NCBI GenBank assembly: GCA_910574345.1
Contig: CAJSZV010000005.1
Coordinates: 62,001-126,000, forward strand
Reading direction: 5' to 3'
DNA length: 64,000 nucleotides
Source: Clostridiaceae bacterium
Lineage (GTDB): Bacteria > Bacillota > Clostridia > Lachnospirales > Lachnospiraceae
Shown: piece by piece, positions 370-59,858 of the stretch
How the letters are laid out: every line of letters begins with the position of its first letter
How positions within the stretch are numbered: the first letter of the stretch is position 1
Translations under genes and position numbers: made by a program
Notes under the pieces: generated by a model
Told to the model about the DNA's origin: nothing
Databases searched by the model: none
The model's input: only the letters and a program-made list of their open reading frames with translations

Positions 370-1215
370 ATGAACAGTTACATACTGACACGAACCCACA
401 TCACTGCCTATGCCAAGTTCCTTAAAAGTGAAGAGAAGTCTGACACTACCATTGAAAAATATTCGCAGACTTTGCATGCGTTTGACTTATGGCTGGCTGG
501 AAGAGCTGTAACGAAAGAGGCTGTGGCTCAGTGGAAAGCATATTTGCTGGAGGAAGGCAAGTCCCCGGCTACGATCAATGCAAAGCTTTCTGCAGCCAAC
601 GGTCTCTTTCATTATCTTGGATGGGATGACTGTAAGGTGAGATTTTTGAAGCTGCAGAAAAAAGTATTTCGGGATTCTTCTAAAGATTTGAGCCGGGATG
701 AGTATCATCGTCTGCTGAGTGCTGCCAAAGCTCTGCATCTGGAATGGCTGGCGCTTCTTATGGAGACCATATGCGCTACAGGAATCCGTGTCTCTGAGGT
801 GAGATATATTACAGTGGAAGCTGTGGCAGCGGGACGGGCTCAGGTAGTGCTTAAGGGTAAAATCCGCATGATACTTATACCAGGCAAGTTATGTCGGAAA
901 TTACGAAAATACGCGAAAAAGAAAAAAATCGCCTCCGGTGAAATCTTTCGCAGGGAAGGCGGTGAGAGCTTGTCACGATATCAGATATGGAAGGCTATGA
1001 AAGCGCTCTGCAAAGGAGCAGGAGTGGAACAATCGAAAGTATTCCCTCATAATCTGCGTCATCTCTTTGCTGCCACTTTCTATCAGGTAACCCAGGATAT
1101 CGTAAAATTGGCGGATGTACTGGGACACAGCAGTGTCGAAACTACACGCATCTATCTTATCACTACAGGCACAGAACATGCACGGCAGCTGGAGCAGCTG
1201 GGATTGGTCAGTTGA
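370..1215 (+). CDS. tyrosine recombinase (XerC/D-like site-specific integrase)
   Basis: The protein has 281 residues, with an N-terminal SAM-like core-binding domain (about 5-85) and a C-terminal catalytic domain (about 105-275). All catalytic positions of tyrosine recombinases are visible: Arg140 in TGIRVSE, Lys164 in LKGK, His227 and Arg230 in HNLRH, His253 in LGHSS and the nucleophile Tyr262 in RIYL. AAGGAGG at 356-362 precedes the ATG. The stop codon is followed after 3 bp by one arm of a perfect 20-bp inverted repeat whose partner lies at 1547-1566, so the likely substrate is this adjacent invertible segment rather than dif or a phage att site. The size fits stand-alone invertases that control phase-variable surface loci. 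Being the general XerC/D of the cell is less likely given this context. Confidence 0.9.
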   Translation: MNSYILTRTHITAYAKFLKSEEKSDTTIEKYSQTLHAFDLWLAGRAVTKEAVAQWKAYLLEEGKSPATINAKLSAANGLFHYLGWDDCKVRFLKLQKKVFRDSSKDLSRDEYHRLLSAAKALHLEWLALLMETICATGIRVSEVRYITVEAVAAGRAQVVLKGKIRMILIPGKLCRKLRKYAKKKKIASGEIFRREGGESLSRYQIWKAMKALCKGAGVEQSKVFPHNLRHLFAATFYQVTQDIVKLADVLGHSSVETTRIYLITTGTEHARQLEQLGLVS

Positions 1216-1274
1216 CTGCAACAGAATCCGTATTCTGTTTTTAATCAGAGAAAAATCTGTATAATTCAACAGAC

Positions 1275-1304
1275 ATTATAGCATATTTTAAGGCTGGATT
1301 GCAA
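1275..1304 (-). promoter_or_regulatory. sigma-A promoter inside the invertible segment, facing left
   Basis: On the minus strand there is a -35 TTGCAA (1299-1304), an 18-bp spacer and a perfect -10 TATAAT (1275-1280). In the present orientation the transcript would start near 1268 and run antisense into the recombinase gene. After inversion about the midpoint of the repeats it would start near 1517 and read rightward into the ORFs from 1600. Confidence 0.72.
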
Positions 1305-1471
1305 TAGCCAGTTAGAAATTCGGCATGATAAATACAGGTCACAAAGATGATTTTTTGTGGCCCTTGGCTTTATATGGCATTAAAACATCGGTCGCGGTGC
1401 GGCAGGTGTTTTTTTATGCACACAGGCACTTCAAGGAAGAGTGTCAGACAAGCCGGCAAGTGCCTGGCGCG

Positions 1472-1511
1472 CAGGCAGAGGAAGGCGGATCTTCCCTGCC
1501 TGATTGTTTTT
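1472..1511 (+). terminator. rho-independent terminator inside the invertible segment
   Basis: CAGGCAG (1472-1478), a bulged A and GGAAG (1480-1484) pair with CTTCC and CTGCCTG (1491-1502) around a 6-nt loop, and ATTGTTTTT follows. It stops rightward transcription in the present orientation and would face left after inversion. Confidence 0.75.
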
Positions 1512-1599
1512 GGGATATTTTTAAGAAAAATGTCCCCTGATATTTCACAGAATACGGATTCTGTTGAGAGAAGAGATATCAAGGGAGAGGAAAAGGGCA

Positions 1600-1740
1600 A
1601 TGAGACATTCCACGAAAAAGCTGAACCTGGCCGGTGAGCGGTATGGAAAGCTGACGGTGTTAAGGCCGGCGGAGAATATTAGCGGTCGGACCGCATGGCT
1701 CTGCAGATGTGACTGCGGAAAAATGTCAGAAGACTGCTGA
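1600..1740 (+). pseudogene. truncated zinc-ribbon ORF (GKLTVL...W.C.CDCG type)
   Basis: The 46-residue ORF contains ERYGKLTVLRPAE and then AWLCRCDCG. This is the N-terminal pattern of a small zinc-ribbon module found in phage and mobile proteins, which normally continues to a second Cys pair (SCGC). Here the reading frame ends right after CDCGK, so the second metal-binding half is missing. The frame runs into the start of the next ORF: a -1 change near the A-run at 1719-1723 would join the two. GAGAGG at 1585-1590 is a possible ribosome site. It is the first ORF beyond the invertible segment and would be the first gene read in the ON orientation. Confidence 0.5.
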
Positions 1741-2404
1741 AATGCCTGCTGGCCGTACTGACACTGGCAGGAGGAATCGGGTATGGAATTACGGCAAAGG
1801 CGCCTGTCAGGGAGAATAAGGGCGGCATCATGGCTGAGGGGCAGGCAGAAACCGATGAGGGCAGTGGAGAAATTGCCGAAAATAGTGCAAAGCATCAAGA
1901 ACTTAAAAAGGAAGACAACATGGCAGACGGAATGGACTCTGTAGAAGAGACGGAAGAAAAAAACCAACAGGGAAATCAAAGCAGCAGGAGAGTAAGACAG
2001 CTGATCCCATAACAGAGCCTATAATGTTTGAATATACCGATTACAAAAGGGCCGTGCCCCGGCTGGCGGTCGGTGTGGAGGCACAGATCGAACGAATCAA
2101 TCAAGGGGAAATCCTGGCGGACATCATAGAGCTGGAGGAATTGGATCATTTTTATGCGCTCATAGCTCTTAACGGGATTGTGGCCAGGAATCAGGAGACG
2201 GGAGAAGAGACAGAGGGAGGCGGGCAGGTTACCGTGTACGTGCCGAACCTTATAGATGGTTTGGAGGAGGTGTCCGCTCTGTTTTATGGAAAGGAATCGG
2301 AACAATGGGAGGTCATACCGGCAGAAGGGACAGATTCCCATAAGAAAACGGTCACCATGGTATTGCCGGGATCGGGGATATTGACCGTGATTTACAAAAG
2401 ATAA
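1713..2404 (+). pseudogene. frameshifted secreted/surface protein behind the invertible promoter
   Basis: In one frame (1713-1963) there is a basic start and a hydrophobic signal-like segment (RLLKCLLAVLTLAGG), then a Glu/Gln/Lys-rich linker. This frame stops at 2010. At a run of seven A (1957-1963) the -1 frame opens and continues through KPTGKSKQQES and TADPITEP into a 126-residue domain (ATG at 2024) ending in LPGSGILTVIYKR. Joined, the two make a coherent exported protein: signal, flexible linker, folded C-terminal domain. No ATG was found for the first part; the frame opens at a CTG at 1713 after a stop at 1710. The A-AAA-AAC heptamer is also a classic -1 slippery site, so decay, homopolymer phase variation and programmed frameshifting all remain possible. 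The function is not recognised. Confidence 0.5.
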
Positions 2405-2439
2405 GATGATGGCGATCTGACAAGAGGGACGGCAGGGGG

Positions 2440-2601
2440 ATGAAGGGATTGTTCCGTGGAGAAAGACGAAGAAGGAAATCGCTGATTATTGTAACCGAGG
2501 AAACCGTGGCAGACATGGTGATAGAGAATGTGAGACACAGCAATTACGGTAATCAATGCATACTGAGTTTCAAAAGAGTTTGTTCCCTTCTTTTTTGGTA
2601 A
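2440..2601 (+). pseudogene. fragment of an initiating sugar transferase
   Basis: The ORF encodes 53 residues. After a basic start (RGERRRRKS) it reads LIIVTEETVADMVIEN and then NYGN, which matches the pattern around the central nucleotide-binding-like domain of polyprenyl-phosphate glycosyl-1-phosphate transferases (VLIVT...; ...NYG). The membrane helices normally before it and the catalytic domain normally after it are absent. The similarity stops near 2560, where the sequence changes into flippase-like coding in another frame. I read this as a deletion scar in a former exopolysaccharide operon. The match is short and made from memory, so the call is tentative. Confidence 0.38.
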
Positions 2602-3097
2602 AGGGTATGAGCCCATAGTAAGGTTAATGCAGGTAGACAGTGTCTTATTTGCAATATTAAGCTTAGGGGAGCTGTTAGGCTGCTTTTTGATTGCCATGAA
2701 TTATGAGAAGAAATATACGATTGCAGTGACATCCGCCGCGGTTATCAATGTGATCCTGAATTTTGTGCTGATCCGCAGTTTTAACTTAGGAGCCATAGGA
2801 GCTGTCATTGCCTCAATTATTGCTGAGTGTGTTTGTACAGGAAGACAATTGTATTCTGTTGAAATTTTTCATGGATACAGACCGATTATTAAGGCTGCTG
2901 TCAGATATATTTTGCCGACAAGCTTTATGGCCGCAGGCATAATACTAATACAATGGCTGTTCAGCGGAGTGATTTCTTTGATATTAAGTGTCGTGATAGG
3001 CATGATAATATATGGGACTTCTTTAATAATAGGTAAAGATGAAATCGCAGTACATATATTAAAGAAGGCAAGAATAAAGATATGTAACCTTTTTTAA
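2567..3097 (+). pseudogene. C-terminal fragment of a Wzx-like polysaccharide flippase
   Basis: From 2567 an open frame reads EFVPFFFGKGYEPIV, then several membrane helices with NYEKKYTIAVTSAAVINV and FNLGAIGAVIASIIAE. This is the pattern of the last third of MOP-superfamily O-antigen/teichoic-acid flippases (Polysacc_synt_C region). The first in-frame ATG is at 2627, and no ribosome site precedes it. About 300 N-terminal residues expected of a full flippase are missing, so it cannot be a working transporter. Its 5' edge abuts the sugar-transferase scrap, consistent with one large internal deletion that removed the middle of the polysaccharide cluster. Confidence 0.72.
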
Positions 3098-55611: not shown

Positions 55612-57024
55612 ATGGCAGTGACAGAGAAGAAACCGGTTAAGATTGTGGAGACAGTCCTCCGTGACGCCCACCAGTCTTTGATCGCCACCAGAATGAGCAC
55701 GGACCAGATGCTGCCCATCATCGATAAGATGGATCAGATCGGCTATTATGCAGTGGAATGCTGGGGCGGCGCAACCTTTGACGCTTCCCTTCGTTTCCTG
55801 AAAGAGGATCCGTGGGAGAGACTGAGAAAATTAAAAGACGGCTTTAAGAACACCAAGCTGCAGATGCTGTTCCGCGGACAGAACATTCTGGGATACAACC
55901 ACTATGCAGATGATGTGGTAGAATATTTTGTTGAGAAATCCGTGGCCAACGGCATTGATATCATCCGTATTTTTGACTGTTTAAATGACCTGCGCAATTT
56001 ACAGACCGCCGTTAAGGCATGCAACCGGGAGAAGGGCCATGCCCAGATCGCCCTGTGCTATACCTTAGGCGACGCCTATACCATGGACTACTGGAAAGAT
56101 ATTGCCAAGAAGATCGAGGATATGGGCGCGGACTCTATCTGTATCAAAGATATGGCCGGCCTCCTCACTCCTTACGCGGCTGAGGAGCTGGTAACGGCTT
56201 TAAAGAGCTCCACCAATCTTCCCATTGACCTGCATACTCACTATACTTCCGGCGTAGCTTCCATGACCTACTTAAAGGCAGTGGAATCCGGCTGTGACAT
56301 CATCGACACAGCCATGTCGCCTCTGGCCCTGGGAACAAGCCAGCCTGCTACGGAAGTGATGGTGGAGACTTTCCGCGGCACTCCTTTTGACACGGGTCTT
56401 GACCAGGTGAAACTGGCGGAGATCGCCGATTACTTTGGGCCTCTTCGGGAGGAAGCCTTAAAGAGCGGTCTCTTAAATCCCAAGGTGCTGGGCGTCAACA
56501 TCAAGACTCTTCAGTACCAGGTGCCCGGCGGTATGCTTTCCAATCTGGTATCCCAGTTAAAGGAAGCCGGACAGGAAGACAAGTACCGGGAAGTGCTGGA
56601 GGAGATCCCCAGAGTAAGAAAAGATTTCGGCGAACCGCCTCTTGTAACGCCCTCTTCCCAGATCGTGGGAACCCAGGCCGTTATGAATGTCATCGGCGGC
56701 GAGCGCTACAAGATGGTTCCAAAGGAATCCAAGAAGATCATGTTAGGCGAGTTCGGCCAGACTGTTAAACCTTTCAATCCTGAGGTACAGAAGAAGATCA
56801 TCGGCGACGAGACCCCTATTACCTGCCGTCCCGCAGACCTGATTCCTCCCCAGCTTCCTCAGTTTGAGAAAGAGTGCGCCCAGTGGAAACAGCAGGATGA
56901 GGATGTCCTCTCCTACGCCCTGTTCCCCAAGGTTGCAGAAGAATTCTTCAAATACAGAGAAGCCCAGCAGACGAAGGTAGACCCGGCAGCCGCCGACACC
57001 GCCAATAAGGCTTATCCGGTGTAA
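55612..57024 (+). CDS. oadA: oxaloacetate decarboxylase/5S-type carboxyltransferase subunit
   Basis: A 470-residue TIM-barrel carboxyltransferase. VETVLRDAHQSLIATRM carries the metal-binding Asp, LMFRGQN-like QMLFRGQNILGY follows, CIKDMAGLLTP has the carboxylated Lys, and DLHTHYTSG the His pair. The C-terminal conserved region (TPSSQIVGTQAVMNV ... RPADLIPP) is present, but the biotinyl domain of full OadA is missing; the separate carrier at 54027 supplies it. The substrate is probably oxaloacetate/pyruvate. AGGAGG lies just before the ATG. Confidence 0.93.
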   Translation: MAVTEKKPVKIVETVLRDAHQSLIATRMSTDQMLPIIDKMDQIGYYAVECWGGATFDASLRFLKEDPWERLRKLKDGFKNTKLQMLFRGQNILGYNHYADDVVEYFVEKSVANGIDIIRIFDCLNDLRNLQTAVKACNREKGHAQIALCYTLGDAYTMDYWKDIAKKIEDMGADSICIKDMAGLLTPYAAEELVTALKSSTNLPIDLHTHYTSGVASMTYLKAVESGCDIIDTAMSPLALGTSQPATEVMVETFRGTPFDTGLDQVKLAEIADYFGPLREEALKSGLLNPKVLGVNIKTLQYQVPGGMLSNLVSQLKEAGQEDKYREVLEEIPRVRKDFGEPPLVTPSSQIVGTQAVMNVIGGERYKMVPKESKKIMLGEFGQTVKPFNPEVQKKIIGDETPITCRPADLIPPQLPQFEKECAQWKQQDEDVLSYALFPKVAEEFFKYREAQQTKVDPAAADTANKAYPV

Positions 57025-57065: not shown

Positions 57066-57209
57066 GCACAGACAGGCCCCATATTCCCCCATTCGGACAC
57101 GCTTCCGCTCAGGTTATCCTAGCAGCGGTACTAAGGGCGCACAACACGCGCCCTAAGGACCGGCTAGGATAAATGGTCCTCATCGGGGGAATATGGGGTC
57201 TGTCTGTGC
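57066..57209. repeat. structured palindromic element A
   Basis: Outer arms of 25 bp (57066-57090 and 57185-57209) pair with one mismatch. Inside, TTATCCTAGC pairs with GCTAGGATAA, and CGGTACTAAGGGCGC with GCGCCCTAAGGACCG around ACAACAC. The conserved core CGGTACTAAG...CTAAGGACCGG, the flanking ATTCGG..CGCTT.CGCT.AGGTT and the CCTCATCGGG stretch are shared with element B in the opposite orientation. The stems differ in sequence but keep pairing. No ORF was found. Confidence 0.85.
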
Positions 57210-57343
57210 TGTTAGCTGGCACAATCAACTGGAACAGCAGCCCGAGGCAGCTCTTACAGGTGAGGAACGATAGTAAAAACAGAACAGCAGAATGCAGACA
57301 AGGCTCCTTCCAAAAATCCTTGGGGGCAGGGTTCATTACCTGT

Positions 57344-57385: not shown

Positions 57386-57524
57386 GTCCGGGGATGGGCG
57401 GATTCCCGATGAGGGGGTATTTGACCCGCCGGTCCTTAGTTCGCGTCTTTTGCGAACTTAGTACCGCTGCAGGGTCAACCTAAGCGAAAGCGGCCCCCGA
57501 ATGGGAATCCGCCCATCCCCGGAC
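57386..57524. repeat. structured palindromic element B (inverted relative of A)
   Basis: Perfect 22-bp outer arms (57386-57407 and 57503-57524). Inside are TTGACCC/GGGTCAA and GGTCCTTAGTTCGC/GCGAACTTAGTACC. Read on the minus strand it has the same order of conserved blocks as element A (AGCGGTACTAAG, hairpin, CTAAGGACCGG, CCTCATCGGG), with different but compensating stem bases. With element A and the small terminator it fills most of the 641-bp gap 57025-57665; the 176 bp between the two show nothing recognisable apart from that terminator. Confidence 0.85.
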
Positions 57525-57665
57525 GTTCCCTCCGCCATCTCCCCCAAAAATCCCCAAACAATTAAACTTTCCTTTAAAATTCTGTGAACTTAGTTGACAT
57601 ATGACCTGCAATATCCTTATAATGGCATTGATGTGTCCATCTAAGGAAAAATTGGAGAGTAACGA

Positions 57666-59858
57666 ATGAAAAAAAGAAAGATCAAACAAGGTCTGGCCGT
57701 TGTGGCGGCCCTGTTTATGACCATAAATTACACCAGCAGTTACATGGGAAGAACCCCTGCGGTCAGTCTGGCTGATACATCAGCGACAGTAAGCGCGACA
57801 AGCCTGAATGTGAGAAGCGGTCCGGGAACTACTTATTCGGCTGTTGGAAAACTGGCGTACGGTTCCTCTGTCAGCATAGCGGGGCAGACTACAGGCAGTG
57901 ACGGAAAGGTCTGGTATCAGATTCGATTTACGAAAAACGGGTCTCAGGCCACAGGCTATATCAGGTCTGACTATGTGAAATTTCCTGCCACTTATCAATC
58001 TGACGGAAATTTTGAACAGTATCTGTCCAATCAGGGATTTCCCGAAAGCTATAAACCTGGTCTGCGCCAGCTTCATGCGGATCATCCCAACTGGGTATTT
58101 ACGGCACAGCATACGAATCTGGATTGGAACGATGTGATCAATAACGAAAGTGTGGTCGGCAGGAATCTGGTTCCGGGAAGCAGTCCTTCTTCCTGGAAGT
58201 CGACGGACAGCGGAGCGTATAATTGGGAGACCGGCACATGGCCCTCTTTTGACAGCGGTTCCTGGGTGGCGGCTTCCAGAGGGATTGTCAGCTACTATAT
58301 GGATCCCAGGAATTTCCTCAATGAAAAGTATGTGTTTCAATTTTTAAAACATAGATATAACAGCAGTATCCATACCATAGATGGAGTAAGAAATATGATG
58401 GAAGGCACATTTCTTGACAACTCCGTGGATGTCAGCGGGAGCCAGTCTTCTGTAGGGGCAGGAGTAGGACCGGGAATGTCGTCAGGAAATACGAATAACG
58501 GTTCAGGCACTGTATCCGGTGGGCCGGGAGTGTCAGGAGGAGCTTCCCCCGGCGGCACAGGTCCGGGCGGCACAACATCGGGGGCAACAGGAGATACGGG
58601 AGGTCCCGGTGTGTCAGGCGGTATCAGTTCCGGCGGCAGCGTCACAGTGCAGCCGGGGGTAAGTCCGTCATCCAATCATTCCGGTACATCCTCAGGCGCG
58701 CCTGTGGGGAGCGGCAGCTCAGGTGTAAGCCTTCAGTCTCCCAGTGCATCCATAAGCAAAAAAGGGACATACCGGGTGGGGACAGCCATAGGACCGGGAG
58801 CCACGGCAGGTCCCGGCGTATCAGGCGGATCTTCCGGGGGCGGTTCTTATTCGGCTCCCATTGCATCCTATGCGGAGATTATCATGAACGCGGCTGCCAG
58901 ATCCGGAGTCAACCCATATGTTTTGACGGCAATGATTCTTCAGGAGCAGGGAACCCAGGGAAGCAGAGGCATATCAGGTACGGTCTCCGGCTATGAAGGA
59001 TATTATAATTTCTTTAATATTGAAGCCTATCAGTCAGGCTCCATGAGCGCCATTGAGAGAGGGCTTTGGTTTGCGTCCCAGTCGGGGAGCTATGAGCGTC
59101 CATGGAACAGTGTAGATAAGGCCATTCTGGGCGGGGCCATATACTACGGCACCAATTATGTGGATGCGGGACAGGATACCTTTTACCTGAAAAAATTTAA
59201 TGTTCAGGGCAGCAATCTGTATAAGCATCAGTATATGACCAACATTCAGGCCGCGGCTTCGGAGGGCGCCAAGCTGGAAGAAGCCTACAGCAGCCAGTTA
59301 AAACAGCTGGCTCTGGAATTCAAGATTCCGGTTTACAAAAATATGCCGGGCAGCGCCTGTGAGATACCAAACAGCGACGGAAGTCCCAACAATAAGCTTT
59401 CCAGCCTGAGCATAGACGGATTCAGCCTGACGCCTACGTTCAGCAGAGATGTCACCACTTACAATGTAATTGTCAGCCCGTCAGTTAATACTGTAAATGT
59501 AAGGGCGACTGCTTTGGACTCCAGAGCCGTGGTCACAGGGGTCGGCAATATTCAGCTTCAAAATGGCAATAATGATATTACCGTCCAGGTAAAAGCGCAG
59601 AACGGTACGATTACTCAGTACCTGATCCATATTGTACGCCAGGATAACAGTACCATTCCAGGCGGCGGTCCCGGCTCCGCTCAGATCCAGGGGGCGGGAA
59701 GCGGTCCGGGAACGGCAGGTTCGGGCGGTCAGACCCAGAGCCCGTCCAGCGATATCTCTATACAGATTATAACCGGAGGACCGGGCGAGAGCAGCAATGC
59801 CGGAACCAGCAGCGGACATACAGGTCCGGGCGGCAGTAATGTGACCATTATTCAATAA
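57666..59858 (+). CDS. exported SH3b / glucosaminidase-like wall hydrolase with Gly-rich insert
   Basis: A 730-residue exported protein. Domains in order: signal peptide (1-37), SH3b (about 41-107: TSLNVRSGPGTTYSAVGKL ... GYIRSDYV), a helical part of the hydrolase (112-250: PGLRQLHADHPNWVF, YYMDPRNFLNE), a low-complexity Gly/Ser/Pro insert (252-397) with three GPGVSGG repeats, the glucosaminidase core (398-540: SGVNPYVLTAMILQEQG, YYNFFNIEAYQ), a cadherin-like beta-sandwich (about 570-655) and a second GPG-rich tail. It should cleave peptidoglycan at the surface. GGAGAG precedes the ATG. The next gene begins 21 bp after its stop. Confidence 0.88.
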   Translation: MKKRKIKQGLAVVAALFMTINYTSSYMGRTPAVSLADTSATVSATSLNVRSGPGTTYSAVGKLAYGSSVSIAGQTTGSDGKVWYQIRFTKNGSQATGYIRSDYVKFPATYQSDGNFEQYLSNQGFPESYKPGLRQLHADHPNWVFTAQHTNLDWNDVINNESVVGRNLVPGSSPSSWKSTDSGAYNWETGTWPSFDSGSWVAASRGIVSYYMDPRNFLNEKYVFQFLKHRYNSSIHTIDGVRNMMEGTFLDNSVDVSGSQSSVGAGVGPGMSSGNTNNGSGTVSGGPGVSGGASPGGTGPGGTTSGATGDTGGPGVSGGISSGGSVTVQPGVSPSSNHSGTSSGAPVGSGSSGVSLQSPSASISKKGTYRVGTAIGPGATAGPGVSGGSSGGGSYSAPIASYAEIIMNAAARSGVNPYVLTAMILQEQGTQGSRGISGTVSGYEGYYNFFNIEAYQSGSMSAIERGLWFASQSGSYERPWNSVDKAILGGAIYYGTNYVDAGQDTFYLKKFNVQGSNLYKHQYMTNIQAAASEGAKLEEAYSSQLKQLALEFKIPVYKNMPGSACEIPNSDGSPNNKLSSLSIDGFSLTPTFSRDVTTYNVIVSPSVNTVNVRATALDSRAVVTGVGNIQLQNGNNDITVQVKAQNGTITQYLIHIVRQDNSTIPGGGPGSAQIQGAGSGPGTAGSGGQTQSPSSDISIQIITGGPGESSNAGTSSGHTGPGGSNVTIIQ

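Follow-up and report, generated by a model that had tools for sequence, protein, structure and literature searches.

A probable recombinase-flipped promoter inverton at the head of a decayed capsule-type operon in a Lachnospiraceae genome

Positions 1219-1566 of the stretch of DNA analysed here (the window, 64,000 nt) are very probably a promoter inverton that is flipped by the adjacent tyrosine recombinase, and that came as the head of a capsule/exopolysaccharide operon between DUF4321 and spo0A, the middle of the operon having since been lost. The window is G000:C5:62001-126000, part of a 5.6-Mb draft genome of 106 contigs (G000). Below, we describe the sites, the recombinase and the segment between the sites, and then the related loci, the remnants downstream and a gene that recurrently accompanies such switches.

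Results

A tyrosine recombinase gene followed by paired inverted sites

The window contains a perfect 20-nt inverted repeat (1219-1238 and 1547-1566) that begins 3 nt 3' of the recombinase stop codon and has a spacing of 308 nt (Table 1). The earlier note on this DNA had described such a repeat behind a complete tyrosine recombinase, with a left-facing promoter and a right-facing terminator between the arms; we reproduced the coordinates of both arms, and likewise the left-facing promoter-like site and the right-facing terminator-like hairpins within the 308 bp. When we searched the 64-kb window for perfect 20-mers whose arms are separated by more than 60 nt and start less than 1000 nt from each other, the only other place that qualified was a palindromic repeat near 57.4 kb, and none of the ORFs adjoining it is a recombinase by eye. 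Two large imperfect palindromes are found in that part of the window (57077-57210 and 57386-57526), between ORFs 55612-57024 and 57666-59858.

Table 1 Features of the switch and of the region downstream (window positions)
Feature	Position	Strand	Basis or remark
Tyrosine recombinase (probable invertase), 281 aa, frame intact	370..1215	+	PF00589 1.2e-22, PF02899 3e-9
Left recombination site (inverted-repeat arm)	1219..1238	+	Internal dyad ACAGAAT-CCGT-ATTCTGT
Predicted invertible segment, 308 bp	1239..1546		Between both arms
Promoter-like site TTGCAA-18-TATAAT with TG	1275..1304	-	Faces recombinase as assembled
First terminator-like hairpin, right-facing, weak T tract	1337..1362	+	Terminator scan, folding
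Second terminator-like hairpin, right-facing, T run present	1384..1415	+	Terminator scan, folding
Extra repeat element within segment	1408..1515		Repeat copies elsewhere
Right recombination site	1547..1566	-	Exact inverted copy of left arm
Remnant of AP2-like gene, first 41 of 155 aa	1600..1722	+	tblastn, 76% to intact L007:3333-3800
Remnant of secreted protein, start lost, frame broken	1722..2404	+	1913-2401 = residues 63-226 of 227 in G004
Remnant of bacterial sugar transferase, N-terminal part (residues 14-64 of 370)	2413..2565	+	tblastn 43%; full-length homologue PF02397
Remnant of polysaccharide flippase, C-terminal part	2627..3097	+	52% to G004:C49:30827-31231; full-length homologue PF01943

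The protein encoded next to the repeat belongs to the PF00589 tyrosine recombinases both by its domain match and by the residues R140, K164, H227/R230, H253 and Y262, which are invariant across a seven-row alignment (two rows being the same protein) and which we take to be the catalytic set (R-K-HxxR-H-Y) of these enzymes. Its nearest solved chain by sequence is 4a8e (E 1.9e-21), and its best-matching named loci are Hungatella MAGs. It missed the cut-offs of the NCBIfam models NF007370 and NF007371, presumably those of FimB/FimE, by a wide margin (21.3 and 19.7 bits vs 221 and 222), and also those of XerA (138.7 vs 220), XerD (121.9 vs 329.6) and XerC (104.9 vs 335.15). This recombinase presumably acts on the two window sites. 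Elsewhere in the same genome, two adjacent tyrosine recombinases (L009:3998-5702, C13) are 28-30% identical to that of the window, with no adjoining inverted repeat among the repeats listed.

The arms were compared across 60 loci having such a repeat. Left and right arms agree in 95-100% at -4 to +7 of the site and drop towards background beyond ~10 nt, an identity that is partly built in near the site centre because the loci were selected by matching arms. The dyad within an arm, by contrast, does not come from that selection: its mean score was 3.77, compared with 0.90 for shuffled sites with the same centring; dyad positions such as -7, -4, +4, +5 and +8 match in 88-93% (control, 54-57%), and the centre (-1 to +2) in 17-32%. 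Since 9.7% of the shuffled sites, taken singly, score as high as the observed mean, we base the dyad argument on the whole set and not on one site. The arms look like what would be expected of two inverted half-sites flanking an asymmetric crossover region, and paired inverted repeats with the anatomy of recombinase sites, by which a promoter inverton can be recognized, were found here. Across the own genome, arm-like sites with up to three mismatches gave 27 rows vs 3 for the reversed pattern, the site being near-palindromic and some sites counted twice. One pair of sites, on C8, was considered as a further switch and rejected; we took it as chance because its sites lie 7.1 kb apart within ORFs and C8 has no recombinase match.

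Contents of the segment and proposed inversion

The promoter-like site by itself is within chance expectation (12 such sites in 6 kb vs 10.6 expected), and its value comes from its conservation among the sister loci. Of the 14 genus loci, 11, the window counted, have a left-facing TTGYAW-18-TATAAT box with TG (10 left-facing and 1 right-facing among the sister loci). In L071 the box is right-facing, the match in L081 is left-facing and weaker, and L080 has no clear promoter direction. The promoter is presumably a working one. Folding of 1330-1415, which spans both terminator-like hairpins, gave a z of -4.30 on the plus strand vs -0.69 on the minus strand. The extra repeat element consists of two hairpins directly 3' of the terminator T-run, and its copies elsewhere in the own genome (C13:20896, 83%; C1:74797, 72%) both follow T-runs as well, with a further match in G001:C40. 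An Rfam search of L001 at E up to 5 returned matches that were all sub-threshold, none of them within the invertible segment.

From this arrangement, the recombinase would act at both sites and invert the 308 bp that they enclose. In the assembled orientation, the promoter would aim back at the recombinase gene, and the terminators would end the recombinase transcript within the segment (OFF). Inversion maps position x to 2785-x by simple arithmetic, which would place the promoter at 1481-1510 on the plus strand with a start near 1517, reading rightward across the right site, and the terminators behind it and facing left (ON); in the flipped form, the recombinase transcript could run on. Inversion had been proposed to act doubly, aiming the promoter at the ORFs from 1600 and removing the terminator from their path. 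This stands in so far as the promoter now faces away and inversion would clear the terminators from the path, but the target ORFs proved to be remnants, as described below.

Conservation of the layout in the genus and the class

As judged from the sequences compared, the switch layout is conserved beyond the window locus. Two further loci of the own genome carry an inverted repeat behind a recombinase that is 66-68% identical to that of the window. At one of them (L007), the switch is followed in turn by an AP2-like gene, a tandem c-di-GMP-I riboswitch and a serine-rich protein of 1599 aa, without a Pfam match, that by eye resembles a surface protein; at the other, it precedes a GtrII-type membrane protein. 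The two riboswitch units of L007 (within L007:3333-8910, C1) score 53.9 and 45.1 bits. In L078, from another species, a single c-di-GMP-I riboswitch separates the AP2-like gene from a long putative surface protein; L078 is the only one of 25 loci with this riboswitch in a scan at the gathering threshold.

In the genus, we found 16 such recombinases (E at most 1e-70) in 10 of 26 genomes, G000 among them. The repeat was present at 14 of the 16 loci, beginning 6-16 nt beyond the end of the recombinase match; of the other two, L079 lacks a repeat and L082 is truncated by a contig end. For the class, we took the best 80 loci of a GTDB scan, of which 7 (L086-L092) were contigs already in the genus set, leaving 73, and set aside 12 with less than 350 nt after the recombinase. 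Among the matches listed, a repeat closely follows the recombinase at 46 of the 61 testable loci and is absent at 15, compared with a repeat at 22 of 1220 random positions, a control that is conservative because positions near true repeats were kept in. One repeat-less locus appears in both sets, as L149 is apparently L079, and L148 and L162, with equal repeat and segment length, are possible near duplicates.

Both orientations at related loci

Inversion in sister genomes had been suggested as a check on the switch, and opposite orientations were indeed found in Hungatella, between L071 (G004:C8) and L007 (G000:C1, the same locus as L083), though at a paralogous switch and not at the window locus. 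First, the left flanks of the two, from the recombinase to the left arm, align in plus orientation (77% over 951 nt). Second, the right flanks, comprising the right arm and the AP2-like gene, also align in plus orientation (78% over 501 nt). Third, the inner end, arm included, aligns in minus orientation (79% over 87 nt, E 5e-14), and the L071 segment scores 49 against L083 when flipped, from the first base of the segment, and 24 as found. L071 and L007 share only ~80 nt 5' of the recombinase; therefore, we treat them as homologous cassettes and not as proven orthologues. Chance as the source of the window repeat is ruled out by the perfect arms, the class-wide recurrence compared with random positions, the arm anatomy and this pair.

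Strict promoter calls on the 60 segments gave 30 facing left (OFF), 6 facing right (ON) and 24 unclear. Among the OFF calls, the best terminator is right-facing in 15 segments and left-facing in 5, and none was found in 10; the corresponding numbers are 2, 1 and 3 for the ON calls, and 13, 7 and 4 for the unclear ones. Agreement in direction between terminator and promoter is loose overall, and is lacking in the few ON calls. We also compared the segments in pairs, using 32 OFF segments, i.e., the strict 30 plus L083 and L093, which are unclear by the strict rule. For the six ON-called segments, flipping improves the match to the OFF segments in 23, 23, 13, 24, 22 and 19 of 32 comparisons; among themselves, the OFF segments match better unflipped in only 14-24 of 31 comparisons. 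This pairwise similarity backs most, not all, of the six ON calls; the test is weak, and the ON call of L105 gains no support from it for that reason. Both orientations are thus seen in nature in one homologous pair and in the promoter calls, at loci other than the window.

The excess of OFF calls and the conserved box, which points towards the recombinase gene in 11 of 14 genus loci, would fit a further proposal of the earlier note, in which a putative antisense RNA made over the recombinase gene in the OFF state keeps the switch OFF. We find this doubtful. Both observations are consequences of the layout or of growth conditions, and any switch so laid out would be expected to send transcripts leftward into the recombinase gene. 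Moreover, the analogous effect on fimE in E. coli is attributed in the relevant passages of PMC5386303 to a Rho-dependent terminator and not to antisense RNA, and those of PMC8777976 treat antisense RNA as a laboratory tool only.

In the own draft assembly, we found no copy of the window segment in the second orientation. This, together with the wrecked target, could also be explained by a switch whose sites and recombinase look intact and whose segment no longer flips, for example with the recombinase unexpressed. We consider such freezing unlikely, since decay would erode the arms, the recombinase frame and its conserved residues, yet the arms are still identical and the frame and residues intact. 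The window segment presumably flips in this strain.

Remnants of a capsule-type operon between DUF4321 and spo0A

The ORFs from 1600 had been taken as the working target of the switch; tblastn revealed them to be fragments of a deleted operon. By comparison with G004:C49, where a homologous switch is followed by an AP2-like gene, a secreted protein, a sugar transferase, CpsB, Wzz, a glycosyl transferase and a flippase, they are the end pieces of a capsule-type operon with large deletions. The AP2-like frame at 1600 stops after 46 codons, the earlier part of the secreted-protein remnant is in another frame by eye, and a Pfam search at E 0.1 gave no match for the residual 126-aa ORF at 2024-2404. 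The flippase match lies ~13.6 kb past the right repeat in G004:C49 and 1.06 kb past it in the window, so that ~12.5 kb is missing by this comparison. An artefact of the draft assembly is possible in principle, but the several separate breaks make it unlikely. The ATG at 1600 and, by eye, a Shine-Dalgarno-like stretch correspond to the start of the intact sister AP2-like gene, as they would if the switch worked and these ORFs were its functional target; the shortened AP2-like frame, the fragmentary transferase and flippase and the lack of a Pfam match for the 126-aa ORF make that reading very improbable. Because the middle of the operon is lost, flipping today would mainly transcribe remnants.

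The family-level search with the upstream gene gave matches in 9 of 60 genomes. We inspected five relatives, the five best of 14 other genomes matching this gene, and in all five DUF4321, spo0A and glgA are consecutive, without a recombinase match and with ~0.14-0.35 kb between DUF4321 and spo0A, compared with 3.1 kb in the window (spo0A identified by PF08769). The absence of the block from all five relatives would also suit an integrated element, of which the repeats would be attachment-site remnants and the recombinase the integrase. However, the repeats flank 308 bp and not the block, they are in inverted order, and the same layout stands before different payloads, so that this explanation is largely refuted and hardly credible. 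The simplest reading is that the recombinase, the switch and the operon were inserted together and then decayed.

A recurrent AP2-like gene behind the switch

A homologue of the L083 AP2-like protein is encoded 3' of the right repeat in 20 of the 60 loci among the matches listed, a count that includes the locus of the query itself and the truncated copy in the window; 9 of these are among the 14 genus loci and 11 among the 46 others. The match begins 18-45 nt beyond the repeat in 17 of the 20 loci. The gene precedes a capsule operon in L076 and, by eye, surface proteins in L083 and L078. Its position suggests that it may belong to the switch rather than to the payload. The Pfam AP2 model scores the protein below its cut-off (21.5 vs 33.3 bits), and the predicted model (mean pLDDT 83.9, pTM 0.50) has AP2 domains among its first PDB matches, with no match at E 0.001 in that search; given the sub-cut-off score and the non-significant PDB matches, the name AP2-like is a lead. 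The AP2-like proteins of L096 (from 7149) and L101 have an N-terminal cysteine-rich unit that is tandemly repeated.

It is tempting to speculate, at a level we would call improbable, that the switch is a three-part module, in which an AP2-like DNA-binding protein would be made first in the ON state, bind near the sites and exert feedback on flipping, be it as a directionality factor or as an ON-state memory, whatever the payload. If so, this feedback would have been lost in the window, where the AP2-like gene retains 41 aa. Our literature search found no paper joining an AP2 domain, invertible DNA and a tyrosine recombinase.

Discussion

In the fimS switch of E. coli, a recombinase gene lies directly upstream of an invertible promoter of ~0.3 kb, and the recombinases are FimB and FimE. 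The window resembles fimS/FimE in its adjoining upstream recombinase gene, and the orientation-dependent end proposed for its recombinase transcript would by analogy resemble that of fimE, whose mRNA, according to passages of PMC5386303, meets a Rho-dependent terminator formed in the OFF orientation of fimS. Unlike FimB and FimE, the window protein lies far below the NF007370/NF007371 cut-offs, and there is one adjacent recombinase. The RecV-dependent switches of C. difficile are likewise clostridial and tied to surface functions: PMC5386303 describes a flagellar switch with 21-bp inverted repeats and a cwpV switch (see also PMC2784873) with an intrinsic terminator that forms in OFF. Both are reported in PMC5386303 to lack a promoter and to act after initiation, whereas the window segment holds a promoter-like site.

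A further comparison is inverton group 139 of PMC11892184, for which the pertinent sections give 33 invertons, 32 of them from Clostridia, linked to the tyrosine-type invertase group 35, as well as read-based orientation shifts for its members in Clostridium sp. D5 and Intestinimonas. The window shares with this group, so far as those sections go, the clostridial host, the short segment between inverted repeats and the nearby tyrosine-type recombinase, and differs in its wrecked payload; very likely, it is a switch of the same kind as group 139/35. Our literature search found no paper linking Hungatella with invertons, and none joining an invertible promoter, a tyrosine recombinase and Lachnospiraceae.

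As a switch, the window locus is an ordinary example of the already known promoter invertons with their own recombinase. Its unusual points are the decayed target and the recurring AP2-like gene. The recombinase-inverton cassette is widespread, and in Hungatella and other Clostridia it is tied to operons for capsules and adhesins; the AP2-like gene, as a recurrent first gene, is a concrete and testable candidate for feedback on such switches. The window itself looks like a clostridial phase switch that has apparently outlived the genes it controlled.
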